Source of the DNA: Treponema sp.
GTDB lineage: Bacteria; Spirochaetota; Spirochaetia; Treponematales; Treponemataceae
Assembly: GCA_012520945.1 (NCBI GenBank)
Contig: JAAYNH010000096.1
Span: 1-46,349 of the forward strand
Direction: 5' to 3'
DNA: 46,349 bases
The stretch's first letter is position 1; the number at the start of each line of letters is the position of its first letter. The translations under genes and the position numbers were made by a program. Below the pieces are notes generated by a model. That model was not told where the DNA came from. It did not search any database and saw nothing but the letters and a program-made list of their open reading frames with translations. This document shows positions 17,496 through 34,196 of the stretch, piece by piece.

Positions 17496-18947
17496 ATGAA
17501 ACCAATACTTATTAAAGATATTTTAGTTTCTTCACCTGACGGTCGTGAAATTACAGTTTATGGATGGGTTCGCACAAAACGCGATTCAAAAAATTTAGTA
17601 TTTATTCAAGTAAATGACGGCTCATGCTTTTCATCAATTCAATTAACTTTTGATAGAGATGAAAATATTAATAACCCAGAGTTGAAAAATCTTGAATCTC
17701 AATTCAAAAAAATCACGACGGGTGCTTCTGTAAAAGCCACAGGAAAACTCATTCCTTCCCCCTCTTCAGGTCAAGCTGTTGAAGTAACTTTAGAAAAAAT
17801 TGAAGTTCTTGGAGAAGCTCCGGCAGAAACATATCCTTTGCAAAAAAAAGGACACACCGTTGAATTTTTACGTGAAATTGCTCATCTTCGTCCGCGTACA
17901 AATATTATTGCATCTGCAGCTCGCATCAGAAGTCAAATGGCTTATGCAATTCATACTTTTTTCTATGAAAGAGGTTTTCATTATTTTAATGCACCAATTA
18001 TTACTGCAAGCGATTGTGAAGGTGCCGGCGAAATGTTTCAAGTTACTACTTTAGATTTAGAACGCATTGCCGCCGATGGTGTAAAAGCCGGAGCAAAAGG
18101 TATGTCCGTTGAAAAAGCGGCGAACCTTGTTGATTATAGCAAAGATTTTTTCGGCAAAAAAGCAAGTCTCACCGTTTCCGGTCAACTGGAAGCAGAAACA
18201 TATGCAACTGCTTTAAGCCGTGTTTATACATTCGGGCCTACTTTCCGTGCGGAAAATTCAAACACACCACGTCACTTGGCCGAATTTTGGATGATTGAAC
18301 CTGAAATGGCTTTTTACGAATTGGAAGATAATATGGACCTTGCCGAAGAATTTGTAAAATATCTATTAAATTGGGCTTTAACAAAATGCACAGAAGATAT
18401 GCAGTTTTTCGAACAACGCGTACAAAAAGGTTTGATAGAAACATTAACCCATGTTGCAAACTCTGACTTTGTTCGTATTACTTATACGGATGCAATAAAA
18501 CAATTAGAAAAACTTAATGACAAATTTGAATTTAAGGTTTTCTGGGGTTGTGATTTACAAACCGAACACGAACGATATCTTACAGAACAAATTTATAAAA
18601 AACCTGTAATGGTTTACGACTATCCAAAAGAAATTAAAGCATTTTATATGAAACTCAATGAAGATGGAAAAACAGTTCGTGCCGTTGACGTTTTAGTTCC
18701 AGGAATTGGAGAGCTCATAGGCGGTTCAGAGCGTGAAAGCAATTATGAAAAACTAGAAAATCGCATAAAAGAAATGAATATGGACCCTCAAGATTATTGG
18801 TGGTATTTAGAATTACGCAAATATGGAACAGTACCGCACAGTGGTTTTGGCTTGGGCTTTGAAAGGTTATTACGTTATATAACAGGTTTAGGTAACTTAC
18901 GCGATGTAATTCCTTTTTTCCGCGCACCAAAACAAGCAGAGTTTTAG
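17496..18947 (+). CDS. asnS: Asparaginyl-tRNA synthetase
   Basis: Class IIb aminoacyl-tRNA synthetase charging tRNA-Asn; 483 residues, normal. The N-terminal OB-fold anticodon domain ([25 protein letters not shown], residues 18-110) is followed by the catalytic domain, with motif 2 in [21 protein letters not shown] and motif 3 in [22 protein letters not shown] loop is seen. The insert around residues 190-215 ([15 protein letters not shown] ...) is a known feature of bacterial AsnRS. Presence of AsnRS means direct Asn charging rather than reliance on GatCAB for tRNA-Asn. Monocistronic; the next gene is convergent. Confidence 0.96.
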
Positions 18948-24324: not shown

Positions 24325-25410
24325 ATGGCAGGAAATTCTTTTGGTAATATTTTCAAAGTTACCACATTTGGTGAAAGTCACGGTGAAGCACTTGGTTGCA
24401 TAATAGACGGTTGTCCAAGTGGCGTTCCGATATCAATAGAAAAAATTCAACTGGCACTAGACAGACGAAAACCCGGTGCATCAAATCCGGCAACAACTCC
24501 ACGAAAAGAAGCAGATAAAGTAGAGATACTGTCCGGTATTTTTGATGGAGTTTCTACAGGAACATCAATCGCTTTAATAATAAAAAACACAAATCAACAC
24601 TCCGGCGATTATTCTGAAATATCAAAAATGTTTAGACCCGGTCACGCAGATTATACATATTTCAAAAAATATGGCATTCGTGATTATCGTGGTGGAGGAC
24701 GTTCATCCGGTCGCGAAACTTGCATGAGAGTTGCCGCCGGTTCAATTGCAACACAAGTTCTTCAAGCCATTTTTTCTACATCCGAAGTTCCACAAATCAT
24801 TGCGTACACAACTCAAATAGCAGACATTGCTATAGAAGAAATTGATTTTTTTGCAATTGAAAAAAATCTAATGCGTTGTCCGGATATGAAAGCCGGTAAA
24901 AAAATGCTTGCAAAAATTGAAACAAGCCGTAAAAACGGCGAAAGTGTGGGTGGCATTGTAGAATGTGTTGTAAAAAATGTACCAATAGGTTTAGGCGAAC
25001 CTGTTTTTAATAAATTAGATGCAATATTAGCACAAGCAATGCTTTCAATCGGTGCAATCAAAGGAATAGAGTTTGGTGCCGGCTTTGGTTCCTCCCTTTT
25101 GTCAGGAAGCCAAAATAATGATAATATGTACTTAAAAGAAGGCAAAGTATTTTTTTCAACAAATAATGCCGGCGGAATTTTAGGTGGAATTACTTCAGGG
25201 CAAGACATTGTTTTTCGTCTCGCTGTAAAACCTGTTCCAAGCATAAGTAAAACACAAAAAACAATTGACACGGACAACAATGAAACAGAAATTTCAATAA
25301 GAGGCCGTCACGATGTTTGCCTTTGTCCACGCATTGTACCGGTTGTTGAAGCAATGACTGCCATTTGCATTTTAGACGCAGTTTTGCAAAATCGTTGCAG
25401 TAAATATTGA
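24325..25410 (+). CDS. aroC: Chorismate synthase
   Basis: Makes chorismate from 5-enolpyruvylshikimate 3-phosphate with reduced FMN, last shared step of aromatic synthesis. 361 residues, normal. Signature motifs are all present: TTFGESHGEALGCIIDGCPSG, RPGHADYTYFKKYGIRDYRGGGRSSGRET, and the C-terminal SIRGRHDVCLCPRIVPVVEAM. Other shikimate genes are not in the window. It stands alone between the MATE gene and the protease/cyclase operon. Confidence 0.97.
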   Translation: MAGNSFGNIFKVTTFGESHGEALGCIIDGCPSGVPISIEKIQLALDRRKPGASNPATTPRKEADKVEILSGIFDGVSTGTSIALIIKNTNQHSGDYSEISKMFRPGHADYTYFKKYGIRDYRGGGRSSGRETCMRVAAGSIATQVLQAIFSTSEVPQIIAYTTQIADIAIEEIDFFAIEKNLMRCPDMKAGKKMLAKIETSRKNGESVGGIVECVVKNVPIGLGEPVFNKLDAILAQAMLSIGAIKGIEFGAGFGSSLLSGSQNNDNMYLKEGKVFFSTNNAGGILGGITSGQDIVFRLAVKPVPSISKTQKTIDTDNNETEISIRGRHDVCLCPRIVPVVEAMTAICILDAVLQNRCSKY

Positions 25411-25479: not shown

Positions 25480-26703
25480 ATGAAATCTAAAAAGATTATT
25501 TTTTTATTAACCGTCTTTACAATAATGTACATTTCTCTTCACGCAACTCCGGGTGATATTAAATATGTAAATGCAAAAACTGCACAACTAAAAATTTCCA
25601 CTGACTTTTTTGCAAAAAAAGCCGGTACTGTTTCATATGGAGAAAAATTACTCGTTGTGGCTGAAAAAGAAAAATGGACTCAAGTTATTCCGGAATCTAT
25701 GCCAAATATTAAAGCATGGATTTCAAACGCTAATATCACTTCAAAAAAGATTTTATCTAATCGTTCCATATCCAACACGGAAATAGCTTTGGCAGGAAAA
25801 GGTTTTACCAGAAGCGGAAAAGCATTTGATATTGAAAATGATGATTTGAATTACGGTGCCGTTGTATCTTTTGAAAATTTTGAAGTTTCGCAAGATGAAA
25901 TTAAAAAATTTATTAGTGCAGGTAGACTTTCTTCACGGAAAAGCAAAAAAACGTTTGAAAGCAAAGTTGACATTTCCGAAAGAGAAGAATATGAAATAGG
26001 TGAAACTGTAGCGGCGGCCATTTTATCGGTTTATACTGAACAAAATGCACCACAAACAAAGCGTTATCTTAACTTAATTGCTCAAAGTTTACTACAACCT
26101 TCTCCACGTCCAACTATGGAATACGGTTATACGGTGGGCATTTTGGACACAGATGAAATTAATGCTTTTGCAACATCCGGCGGGCACATATTTATTACTC
26201 GTGGCTTGCTTTTAAGTGCAAAAAACGAAGATACTTTGGCGGCTGTCATTGCACACGAAATAGCACACATTCACTTACAACACAGTGTTTTAGCCATTAA
26301 TAAAGACAGAAAACGCTCTGAAATTACAAGCAGAATGGACTCGATTTTACTTGAAGCTTTTGGAGAAACCGTTGCCGCCAGCGATGATTTTGCAGATGAA
26401 GTTCGCAGTACTGTAAATACAATGGTGAACAACGGATATTCACAAACTTTAGAATATGAAGCAGATGTTTATGCCATAGAACTTTTGGAAAATGCAGGCT
26501 ATGACACTGTAGGTATGGTTGATATGCTTAAAATGCTAAAACGTAGCATGAATGAACGCAGAGAATACCCAAGTGGCGGTTTTTCAAGCACACACCCTAG
26601 TCCTGATAATCGCTTAACAAAACTTAAACCTGTTATAGGCAATCCTTCTCCTTCGCGTGCTTCAAAAAAAAGATTGGAGAGATTCAAAAACATTTTCAAA
26701 TAA
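25480..26703 (+). CDS. Exported SH3-domain M48 metalloprotease
   Basis: 407 residues. A Sec signal peptide covers about 1-25 (MKSKK, hydrophobic run, HATPG), without a clear lipobox. Next comes a bacterial SH3-like domain (about 30-90: VNAKTAQLKISTDFFAKKAGTVSYGEKL ... WISNANI), which often binds cell wall. The C-terminal half is an M48 peptidase with the zinc motif in AVIAHEIAHIHLQHS and the third ligand in LEYEADVYAIELLENAGYD. It is probably a periplasmic protease of the BepA/LoiP kind acting on envelope proteins. A GGAGGG ribosome site precedes the ATG. The cyclase gene follows after 11 bases. Confidence 0.9.
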   Translation: MKSKKIIFLLTVFTIMYISLHATPGDIKYVNAKTAQLKISTDFFAKKAGTVSYGEKLLVVAEKEKWTQVIPESMPNIKAWISNANITSKKILSNRSISNTEIALAGKGFTRSGKAFDIENDDLNYGAVVSFENFEVSQDEIKKFISAGRLSSRKSKKTFESKVDISEREEYEIGETVAAAILSVYTEQNAPQTKRYLNLIAQSLLQPSPRPTMEYGYTVGILDTDEINAFATSGGHIFITRGLLLSAKNEDTLAAVIAHEIAHIHLQHSVLAINKDRKRSEITSRMDSILLEAFGETVAASDDFADEVRSTVNTMVNNGYSQTLEYEADVYAIELLENAGYDTVGMVDMLKMLKRSMNERREYPSGGFSSTHPSPDNRLTKLKPVIGNPSPSRASKKRLERFKNIFK

Positions 26704-26714
26704 AGGAAAATTTT

Positions 26715-28892
26715 ATGCCTTTGTTAAAAAAAAAGTTTACTCGTGGATTTATAATTGCACTATTTGTATTTGCTGTTGCTTTAACAATGTATTATTTGAA
26801 TGTATTTCACTTTTTGGAACTAAAAACTTATGATAAACTCATAAGGTCAACAGCAACACAAAGCTCTCCTTCTGAAGAAATCATCGTAGTGGTATTAGAT
26901 CAATCCAGCCTAGATTGGGCTAAAAAAGAAAAAGGTTGGTCTTGGCCTTGGCCACGCGAAGCATATGGTGACATTGCCAAATTTTTCAGCTTTGGTGGAA
27001 CACATAGCGTTGCATATGATATTCTTTATACTGAACCTTCTGCCTACTCGGATGCCGATGATGAAAAATTTGCAAAATTGGTTAAAGAATGTGGCAATGT
27101 CATATTTGCTCTACAATTCGGTGAACAATACGGCGATGTGGAATATTGGCACGATGGAATATCACCACCAAATACAACAATGGAAGGCTACTCAAAATCA
27201 TTCATTGAAAAAGCAATTCCTTCTGAGCCGGCATTATTTCCTATTGATATTATTGCAAAAGCCGCATCCGGTTTCGGCTATGTTTCAAGCATTACGGATT
27301 CAGACGGAATTATTCGCAGAGGAAAGCTTTTTACACTTTTAGAAAATATCCCTGTACCTTTTCTTGGTTTAGCAGGATTATCCATAAATACTGAAAAACC
27401 ACTTAATTTTTCACTCAATGAGAAAAAAATGAATGTTAGTTTTGCTAATAAAACAATTCAAGTTGACAACGATAACTCTGTTTATTTGCGTTATCGCAGT
27501 AATATTGAATCCTATGCTCCATATTTTGCTCGTGAAATTTTAGAAAGTTATTATGCAATTGAAAAAGGAGAACAGCCTTTACTCAATCCAAATGAGTTTA
27601 AAGATAAATATGTATTTTTCGGCTTTTATGCACCTGGTCTTTTTGATATTGCCCCTACTCCTATTGATACAAAATATCCGGGTGTAGGAGTACACATTAC
27701 AATCTTAGATAATTTTTTACAAAATGATTTCATTAATTTACCGGCAAAATGGCTTCCCATATTATTGCTTTTAATTTCTTCTTTTGCAGGTGTATGCATT
27801 GTTCATGGATTTGAGCAAATAAAAAAATCTCAACGAACAATTTTAATACTATCATTATTATGTATTTTACTTTTCTGTGGAATTTATATTACGATTGCAA
27901 CGCTCATTTTTATTTGGAAATATTGGATTCCATTTATTGCACCAATTATTACAGCATTTTTAGCTTTTTTTGTTTCTGTTCTTGTAAATTATAACCTTGA
28001 AGGAAAACAAAAACGCTACTTAAAAATAGCTTTTAAACAATATTTAAGTCCTACAGTAATTGAGCAGATAATTGCAGATCCTGAAATGCTAAAACTTGGA
28101 GGCGACAGAAAAGAGATTTCCATGTTCTTTTCCGATTTACAAGGCTTTACATCAATTTCAGAAAAAATTACCCCTGAAGAATTGACAAATGTTTTAAATA
28201 AATATTTAACGGCAATGAGCGATATCATTTTGGAAAGTGGTGGCACAATTGATAAATATGTAGGAGATGCTATTGTTGCTTTTTGGAATGCACCGATTAA
28301 TCAAGACGACCATCCATTCCGTGCATTGAATGCCGCAATGAAATGTCAAGATAAATTATTTCAAATGCAGGAAGAATTAACGGCTATTTCCGGAGTACCG
28401 ATAAAAATGCGAATAGGCTTAAACACAGGTTTTGCAGTAGTTGGAAATATGGGTTCTAAAAATCGTTTTAATTACTCAATGCTTGGAGATTCGGTAAATC
28501 TTGCGGCACGCCTTGAAGGAATGAATAAACAATTTGGCACTTATACAATGTGTACCAAAAATTTTAAAGAAAAAAGTGAATTGTTTGGAAAACCTTTTTT
28601 TATGCGCGAATTAGCAAGAGTTGCCGTCGTAGGAAAACAAAATGCGGTTACGGTTTTTGAACCAATGTCTGAAGAATCTTATACCAAAAAGAAAAAAGTT
28701 TTACCTCATTTTGATACAGCAAGAAATTTATTTTATGAAGGCAATTTCAAAAAAGCACTGGAAATTTTTCAAGTAATTGAAAAATTTGACGAGCCAAGCA
28801 AATTTTATGCACAAAAATGCCAAGATATGCTTAAAATATATCCTGACGGCAATGCAAATTTCGATGGCGTATGGATTGCAACATCTAAATAA
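26715..28892 (+). CDS. CHASE2-domain adenylate/guanylate cyclase
   Basis: A 725-residue membrane sensor enzyme. An N-terminal membrane helix (about 10-28) is followed by an extracytoplasmic CHASE2 domain (about 35-340: EEIIVVVLDQSSLD, PWPREAYGDIAKFF, GAHSVAYDILY-like stretch), three helices (about 345-425), and a class III cyclase domain (about 465-650). Both metal-binding aspartates are seen: Asp474 in FFSDLQGFTS and Asp518 in KYVGDAIVAFWNAP. GDSVNLAARLEGMNKQ carries the transition-state-type residues. A final 60-residue helical tail looks TPR-like. It makes cyclic AMP, or possibly GMP, in answer to an outside signal. Co-transcribed with the envelope protease 11 bases upstream. Confidence 0.93.
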   Translation: MPLLKKKFTRGFIIALFVFAVALTMYYLNVFHFLELKTYDKLIRSTATQSSPSEEIIVVVLDQSSLDWAKKEKGWSWPWPREAYGDIAKFFSFGGTHSVAYDILYTEPSAYSDADDEKFAKLVKECGNVIFALQFGEQYGDVEYWHDGISPPNTTMEGYSKSFIEKAIPSEPALFPIDIIAKAASGFGYVSSITDSDGIIRRGKLFTLLENIPVPFLGLAGLSINTEKPLNFSLNEKKMNVSFANKTIQVDNDNSVYLRYRSNIESYAPYFAREILESYYAIEKGEQPLLNPNEFKDKYVFFGFYAPGLFDIAPTPIDTKYPGVGVHITILDNFLQNDFINLPAKWLPILLLLISSFAGVCIVHGFEQIKKSQRTILILSLLCILLFCGIYITIATLIFIWKYWIPFIAPIITAFLAFFVSVLVNYNLEGKQKRYLKIAFKQYLSPTVIEQIIADPEMLKLGGDRKEISMFFSDLQGFTSISEKITPEELTNVLNKYLTAMSDIILESGGTIDKYVGDAIVAFWNAPINQDDHPFRALNAAMKCQDKLFQMQEELTAISGVPIKMRIGLNTGFAVVGNMGSKNRFNYSMLGDSVNLAARLEGMNKQFGTYTMCTKNFKEKSELFGKPFFMRELARVAVVGKQNAVTVFEPMSEESYTKKKKVLPHFDTARNLFYEGNFKKALEIFQVIEKFDEPSKFYAQKCQDMLKIYPDGNANFDGVWIATSK

Positions 28893-28971: not shown

Positions 28972-31900
28972 GTGAAAAAGGTTTTTATCTTTGTTGTTGT
29001 AATTTTTAGTTTAATTACAATCATTTCATGTGGTTCGGCCCCAAGTGGTGATATTGGTGCTCCTGTTGGTGAAGTCCGCAAAATTGACATTTGGGACTTT
29101 GGTGGTGTTGAAGCTACCGGCACTCAATATAATAATAATATAACGCGAAACAAAATCGACGCAATTGATACTCTTGCAGGTGGAAAATTTCAAGCAGGCG
29201 AAATTAATTTTGGCGACTTAATATTAAATATGGCAAACAATGACCGAGCATATTATTATACTGCAGACGGAAAGCCGGGAAAAAAATCTTATGGCAATCA
29301 AGGTTATGACTCTGTTATTTTTCCTGACGGATATGAATCGCGTGGTTTATTCTATTCCAACGGTACCGGTGGTGAAGACAGACGTTTTATTATAATTAAA
29401 AATGTAAAAGCCGGAGACAAAATTACTTTTTATGCAATCACAAGTAACTCTGCAGAAACAAATGTTTTTTTCACTCATATAAATGAAGATAATATACAAA
29501 CCGGTGAACAAGTTGAAAAAGATAAAATGGTTCAACGTGAAAAAAGCTATGAATATATTGCAAAAGTAGACGGTTCGTACAAAATTTTTACTGACAAAGA
29601 AGGTGGGAAACCATGCTATTATCGTGTTGTAAGAACACCTAGCGTTTTTGTTTCAGGAACCATTTCAATTCCCGGTAAATTCAAAGAAACTCCTTTCGGA
29701 ATTAGTTTTGTAAACCAAATAACAGGAACATCTACGGAAGGAAAAGTTGCCGGCAATTCTTTTGGTGCATACTTGGCTCCAGGATATTCTTATACTGCTG
29801 TAATTTCAGGTGTTGCCGGTCTTGGCATTAATGACGCAACTAAAGTTGTAACCGTTACAAAAGAATCTTCCCTTTCAGGAAAACAAAATGCAAAACTTGT
29901 TGCCGAAGCACAAAGCATTCTTACCGTAAAAGGCACAATCAAAGGTTTTGAAGCCGGCTATGACACAAGTAAAATGCAACTCATTTTTCTCCCGCCAAAA
30001 GATTCTCTGTATCAAGCAGCTAAAGCAAAATTAGAAGGAATGAATTTTTCCGCACTTCTTGAACCAAACGTTTTATATATGGCAAGTTTTGTTGGCGTTA
30101 ATGATTATTTTGTTACAGCGGGTAAAGACTTTAATGCAGGTAGTGATTTTACACAAGACATATCTGTGGGTTTAAAACCAAAATCAACTGCAAGCGGAAA
30201 TCTTATCGGTATCGTTGAAAACAAAAAAATTACATCAATAAAATTTGTAAATATTGATGATGAATATATCTATGAAGGAAATCTTTCAGGAAATGGATAT
30301 AAAGCGGAACTTCGTAACGGCGTTTATAAAATTGTTCTTGACGGAGGATACAATTGTATGATGCATATTATTCTTGAAGGAGCAAATATTACAAAAAATA
30401 TTTTAGTGCACGAAGAAGAAAAAGCAAAAGAAACTTTACCGTTACGAAAAACAATGTATGTCGGATATAACACAAAAGGAAGTTACGACACTTTAGGAAA
30501 AGCAATTAGAGATGCAGAAAAAATGAATCCTAAAAACGAAAATGAACGCATCACAATTTATATTGCACCGGGAGTGTATCGTGAACAAGTGCGCATAAAT
30601 GTTCCATATATAACACTGAAAAATGAAACTCCAAATAAAGAAGCAAAACTCACTTGGTATTATGGAATTGGATATAAATATTACAGTGCAGGTAAAGATG
30701 GTTTTTTCAGTGAAGATGCAAAGCTTGACCGCTTTGAAAAAAATATCGCCGCTCGCTGGGGTGTTGCTACACAAATTTTACCGGGTGCAATTTCTTTCCG
30801 TGCAGAAGGAATAACATTTGAAAGCTCATTTAATAAATATATAACAGATGAAGAATTAGCCGATGGTGTTGAAAGCGACGGTTCAATTAATTTTGTTAGA
30901 AAACTTACTAGCGATGTTCGTCTTGCAAAAGCAAAAGAACGTTCAAGTGCAATATGTGTTGAAAGTGCAAATTCTGAATTTTATAATTGTAAATTTATTG
31001 GTAATCAAGACACTTTATTTACCGGTTCAGGTGTTCCTCAATATTATAGAAATTGTTACATTGAAGGTACAACAGACTACATTTTCGGTGAAGGCGATGT
31101 GGTATTTGAGAACTGTGAACTGGCATGGTGTGGTGCACCTGATATTTCTGCAGAAGGACACATTGCCGTTGCTAAATCAAAAGGCGACAAAGGGTATCTT
31201 TTCCTTAATTGTACAGTTACGACACTTGACGGCATGAAAATGGGAAAGGCAACGTTTGGAAGACCTTGGGAACAAGCTGCAAAAGTTGCTTTTATAAATA
31301 CAAAGCTTGACAGAATTGATTCTATCATAGATGCAGGCTGGGGAAGCATGAGTGGCAACACTCCTGAAAAAGCAACTTTCCGCGAATTTGGTACAACATA
31401 TGACGGAAATGCAGTTGATACTTCCAAACGTGTACAAGGAACAGTACTTTCCTCAAACGATGGTTATACTATGGAAAAATATCTAGGTTCATGGAAACCT
31501 TTTTACAGTGCAAAAGCTCCAAATACAAAACCTACTTTTTCTCAAAAACCTGCACTTACCTCAAATGATGATATTAATACTCCGTATCCGGGACATATTT
31601 TAACAGTGCGTTATGAACTGGATAATGCATCAAAAGAATTTGATTCAAGTTTGATTCGCTGGATTCGCATCGGTTCAGACGGAAAAGAAACAGTCGTTAA
31701 ACTTTCTGCAGGCAATGCTAACAAATCGTATACACTACAAAAAGCAGATGAAGACTGTACAATTCGTTGTGAAGTTATTGCTGAATCTGCGGGAGTAAAC
31801 AAAGGTGCCAAAGAAATAATCAAACTTGCAACAAAAGTAAAAAAAGGTTTTGCACAAGTTGCTAAAACATCGGAAACAATTGGACTACGCGAAGAAGGTA

Positions 31901-32886
31901 AAATTAATATTTTTCTTGCAGGTGACTCAACTGTAAAAGATTATTCACAAATGGGTATGTATCAAGGTGGTATAAATCGTGACGAAGGTTCTTGGGGTGA
32001 ATACCTTGGAGACTTCTTTGACAGTAAAAAAGTTGTTGTAAAAAATTATGCTAACGGAGGTCGTTCAACAAGAAATTTTATTAATGAAGGAACTTTAGAT
32101 AAAATTGCAACTCAAATAAAAAAAGGCGATTATCTTTTAATTCAATTCGGACACAATGATTCATCAAACACCGCCGGATATATTGAAGACCGTCACGTTC
32201 CGCTTGGGTCCCCGGATGCAAAAGGTATTTATCCGACAAAGGGTGGAAACAAAGTAACAACACCTACTAGCTATGCAGACAGATACGGCACAGAATTTTA
32301 CGGATGGGAAAGCGGAACATACAAATGGTTCTTAAAAAAATATATTGATGTAGCTCGCAATGTTGGGGCAACTCCTGTATTAGTAACACCGGTTAGCCGC
32401 CTAAATTTTCAAGGCGATAAAATTCGTCGCGATATGCATCATGACTCAACAGATAAAAACTCACCAAGTCAACCAACTTCACAAGGCAACGCATATGTTC
32501 AAGCTGTAATTCAACTGGCAAAGGAAGAAAAAGTACTATTAATAGATGCATTTGAAATTTCTGCAAATCTTTATGAAGCAGGTCGTGCAAGTGCAAAAAA
32601 ATATCCACCTCAACTTTTTGGTGGCGATGTTACTCATAATAATAAACTTGGTGGTTTTCTTTTAGCCGGTCTTGTTGCAAAAGATTTAAAAAGCAAAAAT
32701 CTTGATATTTCAAAATCAACGATACGACCTGTTAAAATTATCGGTGCCAATGCAAAAGGAAAAGAAGTTTTCACGGTTGGGGTTTCAAGCACATTCTATG
32801 CTTTTGAATCCGGAATGTCTGAAAATTATGAAAAGCAATCTGATTTTTGGACAGAGTATGGACAAAAACTTATTAATGAATTTTGA
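28972..32886 (+). CDS. Pectin methylesterase / rhamnogalacturonan acetylesterase lipoprotein
   Basis: A 1304-residue surface or periplasmic lipoprotein with two esterase domains. Start: GTG at 28972, five bases after GGAGG. The signal peptide ends LITIISC, a lipobox with Cys about residue 19. Residues 20-490 are beta-rich, likely carbohydrate-binding, with no clear family. A CE8 pectin methylesterase covers about 490-820: GVYREQV, Asp680 in GNQDTLF, Asp702 in GTTDYIFG and Arg764 in GRPW. After an Ig-like linker, a CE12 SGNH acetylesterase covers about 970-1240: nucleophile Ser986 in AGDSTVKDY, oxyanion Asn in QFGHNDSS, and Asp1219/His1222 in GDVTHNNKLGG. It would strip methyl and acetyl groups from pectin before depolymerisation. 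No lyase is nearby. The D,D-carboxypeptidase gene overlaps its stop. Confidence 0.93.
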   Translation: MKKVFIFVVVIFSLITIISCGSAPSGDIGAPVGEVRKIDIWDFGGVEATGTQYNNNITRNKIDAIDTLAGGKFQAGEINFGDLILNMANNDRAYYYTADGKPGKKSYGNQGYDSVIFPDGYESRGLFYSNGTGGEDRRFIIIKNVKAGDKITFYAITSNSAETNVFFTHINEDNIQTGEQVEKDKMVQREKSYEYIAKVDGSYKIFTDKEGGKPCYYRVVRTPSVFVSGTISIPGKFKETPFGISFVNQITGTSTEGKVAGNSFGAYLAPGYSYTAVISGVAGLGINDATKVVTVTKESSLSGKQNAKLVAEAQSILTVKGTIKGFEAGYDTSKMQLIFLPPKDSLYQAAKAKLEGMNFSALLEPNVLYMASFVGVNDYFVTAGKDFNAGSDFTQDISVGLKPKSTASGNLIGIVENKKITSIKFVNIDDEYIYEGNLSGNGYKAELRNGVYKIVLDGGYNCMMHIILEGANITKNILVHEEEKAKETLPLRKTMYVGYNTKGSYDTLGKAIRDAEKMNPKNENERITIYIAPGVYREQVRINVPYITLKNETPNKEAKLTWYYGIGYKYYSAGKDGFFSEDAKLDRFEKNIAARWGVATQILPGAISFRAEGITFESSFNKYITDEELADGVESDGSINFVRKLTSDVRLAKAKERSSAICVESANSEFYNCKFIGNQDTLFTGSGVPQYYRNCYIEGTTDYIFGEGDVVFENCELAWCGAPDISAEGHIAVAKSKGDKGYLFLNCTVTTLDGMKMGKATFGRPWEQAAKVAFINTKLDRIDSIIDAGWGSMSGNTPEKATFREFGTTYDGNAVDTSKRVQGTVLSSNDGYTMEKYLGSWKPFYSAKAPNTKPTFSQKPALTSNDDINTPYPGHILTVRYELDNASKEFDSSLIRWIRIGSDGKETVVKLSAGNANKSYTLQKADEDCTIRCEVIAESAGVNKGAKEIIKLATKVKKGFAQVAKTSETIGLREEGKINIFLAGDSTVKDYSQMGMYQGGINRDEGSWGEYLGDFFDSKKVVVKNYANGGRSTRNFINEGTLDKIATQIKKGDYLLIQFGHNDSSNTAGYIEDRHVPLGSPDAKGIYPTKGGNKVTTPTSYADRYGTEFYGWESGTYKWFLKKYIDVARNVGATPVLVTPVSRLNFQGDKIRRDMHHDSTDKNSPSQPTSQGNAYVQAVIQLAKEEKVLLIDAFEISANLYEAGRASAKKYPPQLFGGDVTHNNKLGGFLLAGLVAKDLKSKNLDISKSTIRPVKIIGANAKGKEVFTVGVSSTFYAFESGMSENYEKQSDFWTEYGQKLINEF

Positions 32887-34196
32887 TGAAAAATAAAATA
32901 AAAATTATAATTGCTGTAAGTTTATCAATTGTACTTGCAGCAATTATTTCTTTTTTTATATATACTTTATCTTTCTCAAAAACACCAAATGTATCTTCCC
33001 TCTCAATAGAAGAAAATTATGCATTGATGGAAATTATTAAAAAAAACTATTCTAAGCCTGTTATGTTTTATCCTGAGTTTGAAACAAGCAACTTAGAAAA
33101 TAAAATAAAACTAAAAGCACGCTCTTGCATTTTACTTGATGCAACAACAGGAGCAATTATTTATGAAAAAAATGCAGATGAACTTATTCCTCCTGCAAGC
33201 ATGACAAAACTTGTTGTAATGTATATTCTTTTTTCCGAAATTGAAAAAGGTAACATTCAACTTACAGACATTGTTTCATTACCTCCGGAAAGTTGGTATA
33301 TTAATGCATTGCCAGGCTCAAGCTTGATGTTTTTAGAACAAGACGATAAAGTTACGCTATATGATTTAATGCTTGGCATGTCTGTTATGTCAGGGAATGA
33401 TGCTGCCGTTGCTTGTGCATATTATGTATCAGATTCAATAGAAAATTTTGTTCAACGTATGAACAAGGAAATGGAAAAACTTAACCTTGTACATACACGT
33501 TTTGTTGACACTTCAGGTTACAGCGAATTAAATCAAACAACTGCACGCGAATTTGCAAAATTTACACGCATATATTTGCAAACTTTTCCACAAAGTCTTG
33601 AACTTTTTCATAACAAAAAAGAAATGACTTTTAAAGGAACATTATTTAAAAGCACAAATAAAGTACTTGGAAAAGTTTTAGGAGTAGACGGTTTAAAAAC
33701 AGGCTTTATTCCTGAAAGCGGTTTTAATTATGCAATGACATGTAAACAAAACTCAACAAGAATTATTGCAATTTTTATGGGTGGTCCTGGATATAATTCG
33801 ATTGAAGGAAATATTAACAGAATTGAAGATGCTATTAACCTAACGGAAAACTTTTTTGCAAATTATGAAACTACATTACCTGAATATTATTCATATAATG
33901 TTAACGTATTTACAGGAAAAAAGAATTCTTTAACATTAATTCCTGCATTTTCAGACAAAATAACAACACCCGTTTTAAATCAACCTTTTAGAATTGAAAA
34001 AAACATTCCTCAGTTTTTAAATGCACCAATTACTGCCGGAGAGAAAATAGGTAATCTAAAGTATTATATAAATGATATTTTAATTCAAACCGTGCCTTTA
34101 ATTGCCGACCGTAACATTGAAAAAGGAAACAAAGCTAAAATTTTTATTGATAAATGTGCAAGAAAAATTTTCAAAATACTGTTTACTTCTTACTAA
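32886..34196 (+). CDS. D-alanyl-D-alanine carboxypeptidase (S11, PBP5-like)
   Basis: 436 residues. Trims the terminal D-Ala of peptidoglycan pentapeptides in the periplasm. An N-terminal membrane anchor or signal (IIIAVSLSIVLAAIISFFIYTL) precedes the serine-transferase domain. The three catalytic motifs are visible: Ser105-x-x-Lys108 in PPASMTKLV, Ser169-Gly-Asn in MSGNDAA, and Lys271-Thr-Gly in DGLKTGFI. A C-terminal PBP5-type beta domain (about 330-420) follows. The ATG at 32886 shares its A with the TGA stop of the pectin esterase gene (TGATG), so translation is coupled; the TTG one codon earlier is less likely. Pairing with a pectin enzyme is unusual. Confidence 0.94.
   Translation: MKNKIKIIIAVSLSIVLAAIISFFIYTLSFSKTPNVSSLSIEENYALMEIIKKNYSKPVMFYPEFETSNLENKIKLKARSCILLDATTGAIIYEKNADELIPPASMTKLVVMYILFSEIEKGNIQLTDIVSLPPESWYINALPGSSLMFLEQDDKVTLYDLMLGMSVMSGNDAAVACAYYVSDSIENFVQRMNKEMEKLNLVHTRFVDTSGYSELNQTTAREFAKFTRIYLQTFPQSLELFHNKKEMTFKGTLFKSTNKVLGKVLGVDGLKTGFIPESGFNYAMTCKQNSTRIIAIFMGGPGYNSIEGNINRIEDAINLTENFFANYETTLPEYYSYNVNVFTGKKNSLTLIPAFSDKITTPVLNQPFRIEKNIPQFLNAPITAGEKIGNLKYYINDILIQTVPLIADRNIEKGNKAKIFIDKCARKIFKILFTSY

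Follow-up and report, generated by a model that had tools for sequence, protein, structure and literature searches.

The locus described here raises the question of whether two adjacent genes of unlike function work together. In a Treponema sp., the gene for a large pectin esterase runs into dac, the gene for a D,D-carboxypeptidase, and a first-pass annotation had proposed that both proteins are made in step and that the carboxypeptidase may help to place or release the esterase. The window, by which we mean the whole 46,349-nucleotide stretch analysed, is contig G000:C72 of a 2.19 Mb draft genome; the compared set included no other genome of its genus. Gene order is aroC, M48 peptidase, CHASE2-adenylate cyclase, esterase, dac, an NfeD-like gene and an SPFH gene. 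Residues of the esterase are numbered from GTG 28972 and those of dac from ATG 32886, and the relevant features are as follows.

24325..25410, + strand: aroC (chorismate synthase), in relatives frequently the gene upstream of dac
25480-26703: M48 peptidase gene
26715-28892: CHASE2-adenylate cyclase gene
28972..32886, + strand: multimodular pectin esterase lipoprotein (open reading frame, Pfam, Shine-Dalgarno sequence, motifs)
28972..29031, + strand: signal sequence with lipobox I-I-S-C, Cys20 (motif)
29083..29646, + strand: predicted N-terminal beta-sandwich carbohydrate-binding module (CBM), residues about 38-225 (AlphaFold2)
29647..30375, + strand: about three predicted Ig-like beta-sandwich modules, residues about 226-468 (strand pattern of the model)
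30460..31509, + strand: CE8 pectin methylesterase domain (Pfam; PmeC5 9MM2)
31537..31824, + strand: predicted Ig-like module linking the CE8 and CE12-type domains (seen as strands 360-455 in the second model)
31897..32883, + strand: CE12-type SGNH esterase domain (Pfam GDSL, 1DEO, 2O14, motifs)
32884..32888, + strand: TGATG, in which stop and start codons overlap; the dac ATG is not preceded by a Shine-Dalgarno-like stretch
32886..34196, + strand: dac, PBP5-type D,D-carboxypeptidase with S11 and PBP5_C domains (Pfam, motifs)

The program-called esterase frame starts at TTG 28960; GTG 28972, with GGAGG five bases upstream, is the better start. The esterase stop codon (TGA, 32884-32886) shares one nucleotide with the dac start codon (ATG, 32886-32888), just as the annotation had read the junction. 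The overlap itself is not rare in the window, where 1- or 4-nt overlaps join 5 of 29 co-directional ORF pairs (mostly with program-called starts).

The annotation had also described a single polypeptide with a CE8 and a CE12 esterase domain, catalytic residues intact in both, and the Pfam profiles, motifs and structural matches all agree with this description. Pfam assigned Pectinesterase (6.1e-31) and Lipase_GDSL (2e-8) to the protein. The CE8 profile (PF01095) scored 107.7 bits against a cut-off of 27, and the domain, which matches PmeC5 9MM2 with E 7.7e-34 and Z 41.1, has NQDT at 678, TTDYIFG at 700 and GRPW at 763, so that the Gln-Asp, Asp and Arg catalytic motifs (NQDT, TDYIFG, GRPW) align with 9MM2. 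In the SGNH domain the Ser, Gly, Asn and Asp/His motifs are present as GDST 984, GGRS 1029, GHND 1060 and GDVTHNN 1218. The second structure model had a mean pLDDT of 82.2, and the SGNH domain matched rhamnogalacturonan acetylesterase (1DEO, Z 23.4) and YxiM (2O14, Z 23.0), the other SGNH structures among the matches listed reaching Z 16.2 at most. The domain is not called PaeY, since it scored 61.1 bits against the NCBIfam PaeY equivalog cut-off of 1000. Its predicted CE12-type identity is supported by the PaeY profile, YxiM and rhamnogalacturonan acetylesterase, and we take YxiM, rhamnogalacturonan acetylesterase and PaeY to be CE12 members.

At the N-terminus, a lipobox cysteine follows a short hydrophobic stretch (I-I-S-C20), which bears out the lipoprotein reading for the window genome. 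The lipobox pattern occurs in 1 of 31 readable N-termini of relatives, and doubtfully there (L116, inside a hydrophobic stretch); the other N-termini mostly end, by eye, in AQ-/SQ-type (..SAQ) cleavage sites. By sequence, the lipobox thus appears essentially peculiar to the window genome.

About 470 residues had been left unassigned. This remains true for Pfam, which placed no family over the N-terminal ~450-470 residues apart from stray matches and the beginning of the CE8 profile, and phmmer found no match to the region in the PDB; nevertheless, AlphaFold2 makes the stretch assignable as a carbohydrate-binding module followed by Ig-like modules. The model (493 residues, 48 aligned sequences) had a mean pLDDT of 93.2. 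Its alignment (A3) consisted of the window and 47 of 51 computed loci, the near-duplicates L115, L149, L185 and L186 being left out; another alignment (A4) held the window and 26 chosen loci. Model residues 1-188 matched 8WC1 (Z 16.2, rmsd 2.2 Å, 139 aligned) and 8X8H (Z 16.1, rmsd 2.1 Å, 138 aligned), with the next structural match at Z 9.5, and, independently though weakly (E 0.013), the 48-sequence profile ranked 8X8H, a pectate disaccharide-lyase, first among PDB sequences. In the predicted structure, the N-terminal module therefore has the fold of a pectinase CBM, and a ~450-residue stretch lacking a Pfam match is now given a fold. A literature search found no paper mentioning 8WC1. The stretch between this module and CE8 looks like about three Ig-like modules, their boundaries being a reading of the model's strand pattern; Foldseek, run on the N-terminal model, gave matches to pilin and adhesin Ig-type arrays, with poor whole-length superposition.

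The downstream gene is a resident of these genomes. dac matches Peptidase_S11 (3.4e-54) and PBP5_C (2.5e-9) and has SMTK at 105, SGN at 169 and KTG at 271; the S11 profile, the SxxK, SxN and KTG motifs and PBP5_C together identify an S11 D,D-carboxypeptidase, the sole S11 match in the window genome. We considered dac as a pectin-locus gene and rejected this candidate: 134 of 148 relatives have dac, and almost all of these lack the esterase, whose full-length form, with the own genome counted, is limited to the window genome (G000) and four others. In 16 of the 32 esterase-free loci (L075-L106; counts by eye) the gene immediately preceding dac is aroC, although in one of these, L100, a small overlapping ORF is called between the two; in 5 of the 32 that position is taken by a homologue of window gene 17496-18947. 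The esterase often occupies this aroC-dac slot, the order aroC-esterase-dac being seen in L109, L110, L122, L124, L126 and G058. In the window, aroC is separated from dac by the M48, CHASE2-cyclase and esterase genes. The M48 and CHASE2-cyclase genes (25480-28892) are 11 nt apart, and in none of the other loci of the comparison was a homologue of either labelled next to dac or the esterase. Many Treponema loci, with or without the esterase, also have a gene of ~740 residues convergent with dac (L124:15397-17610 and homologues), the C-terminal part of which resembles a polysaccharide deacetylase, judging from a motif.

Full-length relatives of the esterase were found in rumen and gut Treponema (including T. 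berlinense, T. saccharophilum and T. zioleckii), Lachnospiraceae, Bacillus and Paenibacillus, with 80 loci kept of 106 confirmed. Of the order's 291 genomes, 13 carry the N-terminal module, with one match each. The esterase tree had 58 rows, the window and 57 loci; it was drawn from the 80 loci, leaving out those with fewer than 1000 residues aligned to the window, L163, L164, L175, L111 and L146, and was made without L176-L182 and L184. All 28 Treponema rows fell on one side of a branch with SH-aLRT 100, and because the Treponema esterases form one clade, a single entry followed mainly by descent is likely. Within this clade the window pairs with L107, from a MAG named T. brennaborense. In this stretch of L107 (7368-13816), a pectate lyase with a lipobox-like N-terminus immediately precedes the esterase in the same orientation, and dac is divergent from both. 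Several Bacillota loci (L165, L162, L139 and L143) have tandem sets of at least two large ORFs related to the esterase.

As to gene order in other Treponema, which the annotation had named as a check, dac proved to be a recurrent neighbour. tblastn located dac in 23 of 32 Treponema/Spirochaetaceae esterase loci. In five of the nine others the contig ends close by (L111, L116, L117, L164, L175), and in four (L114, L120, L123, L147) there was no dac in 6.5 kb or more on each side, which leaves 27 informative loci, 23 of them with the two genes as neighbours. Among the 23 linked loci, 15 have dac as the next gene downstream of the esterase in the same orientation; a small gene intervenes in two (L115, L160), two genes in one (L129), and dac is on the other strand in five (L107, L108, L128, L131, L149). 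Even near-identical copies differ, that of T. zioleckii (L115) being linked to dac and that of T. saccharophilum (L114) not. No dac was labelled near the Bacillota esterase copies. Literature searches found no paper joining Treponema, D-alanyl-D-alanine carboxypeptidase and pectinesterase, and none joining Monoglobus pectinilyticus, CE12 and CE8.

Proximity is not the same as coupling. Overlaps of -1 and -4 are described as coupling translation tightly (PMC10666635; PMC6728339), and in the reporter work of PMC10666635 a gap of ~20 nt nearly abolished coupling. Gaps in the 15 co-directional relatives were 1, 2, 18, 34, 35, 63, 90, 90, 100, 104, 110, 115, 136, 209 and 221 nt, that is, an overlap in none and a gap of 18 nt or less in three. 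By the ~20 nt measure, only the window, L109 (1 nt) and L146 (2 nt), the last two being near-zero gaps in a second lineage, look coupled, and perhaps L125 (18 nt). A strong intrinsic terminator, defined as a hairpin of -15 kcal/mol or better plus a T tail, separates the genes in 7 of the 15, whereas random windows of these loci gave at least 4 in 900 by the same definition; the intergenic hairpin of G058 reached -14.7 kcal/mol. Terminators are present in L113 and L185, whose dac genes cluster with those of L109, L125 and L146; in the esterase tree, from which L146 was omitted, the two cluster with L109 and L125. A coupled unit was accordingly rejected as the ancestral state, and the annotation's unit is not supported as a conserved one, given the absence of overlaps, the terminators and the inverted or separated pairs elsewhere. 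Loss of the overlap in other genomes is one half of what the annotation itself had named as refuting its proposal.

Nor does the proposed role of the carboxypeptidase fare better. A lipoprotein is held by its lipid, not by peptidoglycan, and only one relative of 31, doubtfully, matches the lipobox; there is no support for peptidoglycan trimming that places a lipid-anchored or freely secreted esterase. A functional partnership of pectin and peptidoglycan enzymes is not supported. Judging from the relatives, the tight junction looks instead like a chance local product of gene packing, with translational coupling plausible in the window genome. The same genome has a second pectinesterase (G000:C44, L073:8368-10799), a 341-codon open frame whose ATG overlaps the TGA of mnmE, a tRNA-modification gene, as ATGA; pectin esterase genes can thus come to lie flush with housekeeping genes where no partnership is evident, and such a junction between unlike genes need not mean one. 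On another contig (G000:C46:1827-2564, L074), a six-frame search gave Pectinesterase (PF01095) at 60 bits within a 1347-codon frame, for which whole-ORF hmmscan reported only Big_2.

We therefore read the locus, with a probability of roughly 0.8, as a secreted multimodular pectin esterase beside a housekeeping dac, probably after one entry and mostly by descent, with the junction closed locally. Probably the N-terminal module keeps the enzyme attached to pectin. There CE8 would take off methyl esters, with release of methanol, and the acetyl groups would be removed by the CE12-type domain; the de-esterified pectin would then be open to cutting by lyases and polygalacturonases. In the window genome the lipobox may tether the esterase to a membrane. 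The gene probably entered the Treponemataceae once, next to dac and often in the aroC-dac gap, and would have stayed there mostly by descent. In the window the genes would then have closed up to TGATG, and dac translation may partly rely on reinitiation if there is one transcript. This reading is preferred because of the domains, motifs, matches to PmeC5, 1DEO and YxiM, and CBM fold; because full-length relatives occur in Treponema and Bacillota with the Treponema esterases in one clade; and because of the aroC-dac slot, the terminators, the variable gaps, the comparable mnmE junction and the dac tree. In that tree, made from the 60 stretches, of 70, in which tblastn found dac, 25 EST-positive rows (one genus-level group) form one clade (99/98); the window, on a long branch, falls outside it, as do L067/L107.

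Persistence of the neighbourhood in 23 of 27 loci and the near-zero gaps in a second lineage are not demanded by descent alone and count against the preferred reading. Together with the TGATG overlap, they are what favours a functional unit, in which peptidoglycan trimming lets a large surface protein be placed or released. We consider such a unit highly improbable, given that none of the 15 co-directional relatives has the overlap and seven have strong terminators, that the pair is inverted or separated in other loci, that Bacillota copies have no dac labelled nearby, and that dac is the genome's sole S11 match and widespread in esterase-free relatives. Hardly more probable is selection for the neighbourhood itself, whereby surface pectin digesters would benefit from coordinating peptidoglycan trimming with an exported esterase of very large size; if it were true, the linkage would have survived inversions and flush junctions would have arisen in two lineages.

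Coupling without partnership, in which the overlap sets the dac level via reinitiation and is incidental to compaction, has a slightly better than even chance of being correct. It is compatible with the preferred reading, of which it is the least tested step. The tight coupling reported for such overlaps speaks for it, as does the lack of a Shine-Dalgarno-like stretch before dac, a lack shared with 8 others of 28 window genes tested; however, promoter-like matches in the AT-rich stretch were at chance level (38 found vs 37.0 expected), so an internal dac promoter is possible. It is doubtful, though by no means far-fetched, that the esterase instead moved between Treponema lineages by recombination via flanking genes. 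Its arrangement near dac differs among the three lineages that have it there, most genera are without it (as the 13 genomes with the N-terminal module show), and the window is placed differently in the two trees, which leaves a single insertion followed by descent unproven. Against recombination, the Treponema esterases form one clade, the large EST-positive group is likewise one clade in the dac tree, and the long branch makes the placement of the window dac unsure. The durable dac neighbourhood is nevertheless read most simply as inherited from a single insertion.

Compared with known systems, the esterase is ordinary but large, as multimodular pectinases of this kind are already known. Its closest solved CE8 structure is PmeC5 of Butyrivibrio fibrisolvens D1 (PDB 9MM2), which is described, like the esterase, as a large secreted multidomain rumen pectinase (PMC12109409). 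According to the same source PmeC5 carries a PL9 lyase and adhesin-like/cell-wall-binding domains, whereas the window esterase has a CE12-type partner and an N-terminal CBM. Rumen methanol, a methane precursor, is reported to stem mainly from pectin methylesterase action (PMC10530356). The N-terminal module shares its beta-sandwich with the CBMs of a putative pectate lyase and a pectate disaccharide-lyase (8WC1, 8X8H) at 15-17% identity to the predicted Treponema module, and the SGNH fold and motifs are shared with YxiM (2O14), rhamnogalacturonan acetylesterase (1DEO) and PaeY. dac shares S11, SxxK, SxN, KTG and PBP5_C with the PBP5/PBP6-type carboxypeptidases (DacA, DacC); its best match is DacC 3IT9, with no notable difference from that type. 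The N-terminal module, CE8 and CE12-type domains extend along nearly the whole query in T. berlinense, T. saccharophilum, T. zioleckii, Lachnospira multipara, Clostridium fimetarium and Paenibacillus turpanensis. The Treponema relatives have a Sec-type signal in place of the window's lipobox, and the Bacillota copies often contain additional sequence that makes them longer. A large CBM-CE8-CE12 pectin esterase is thus common to gut and rumen Treponema and pectin-degrading Bacillota.
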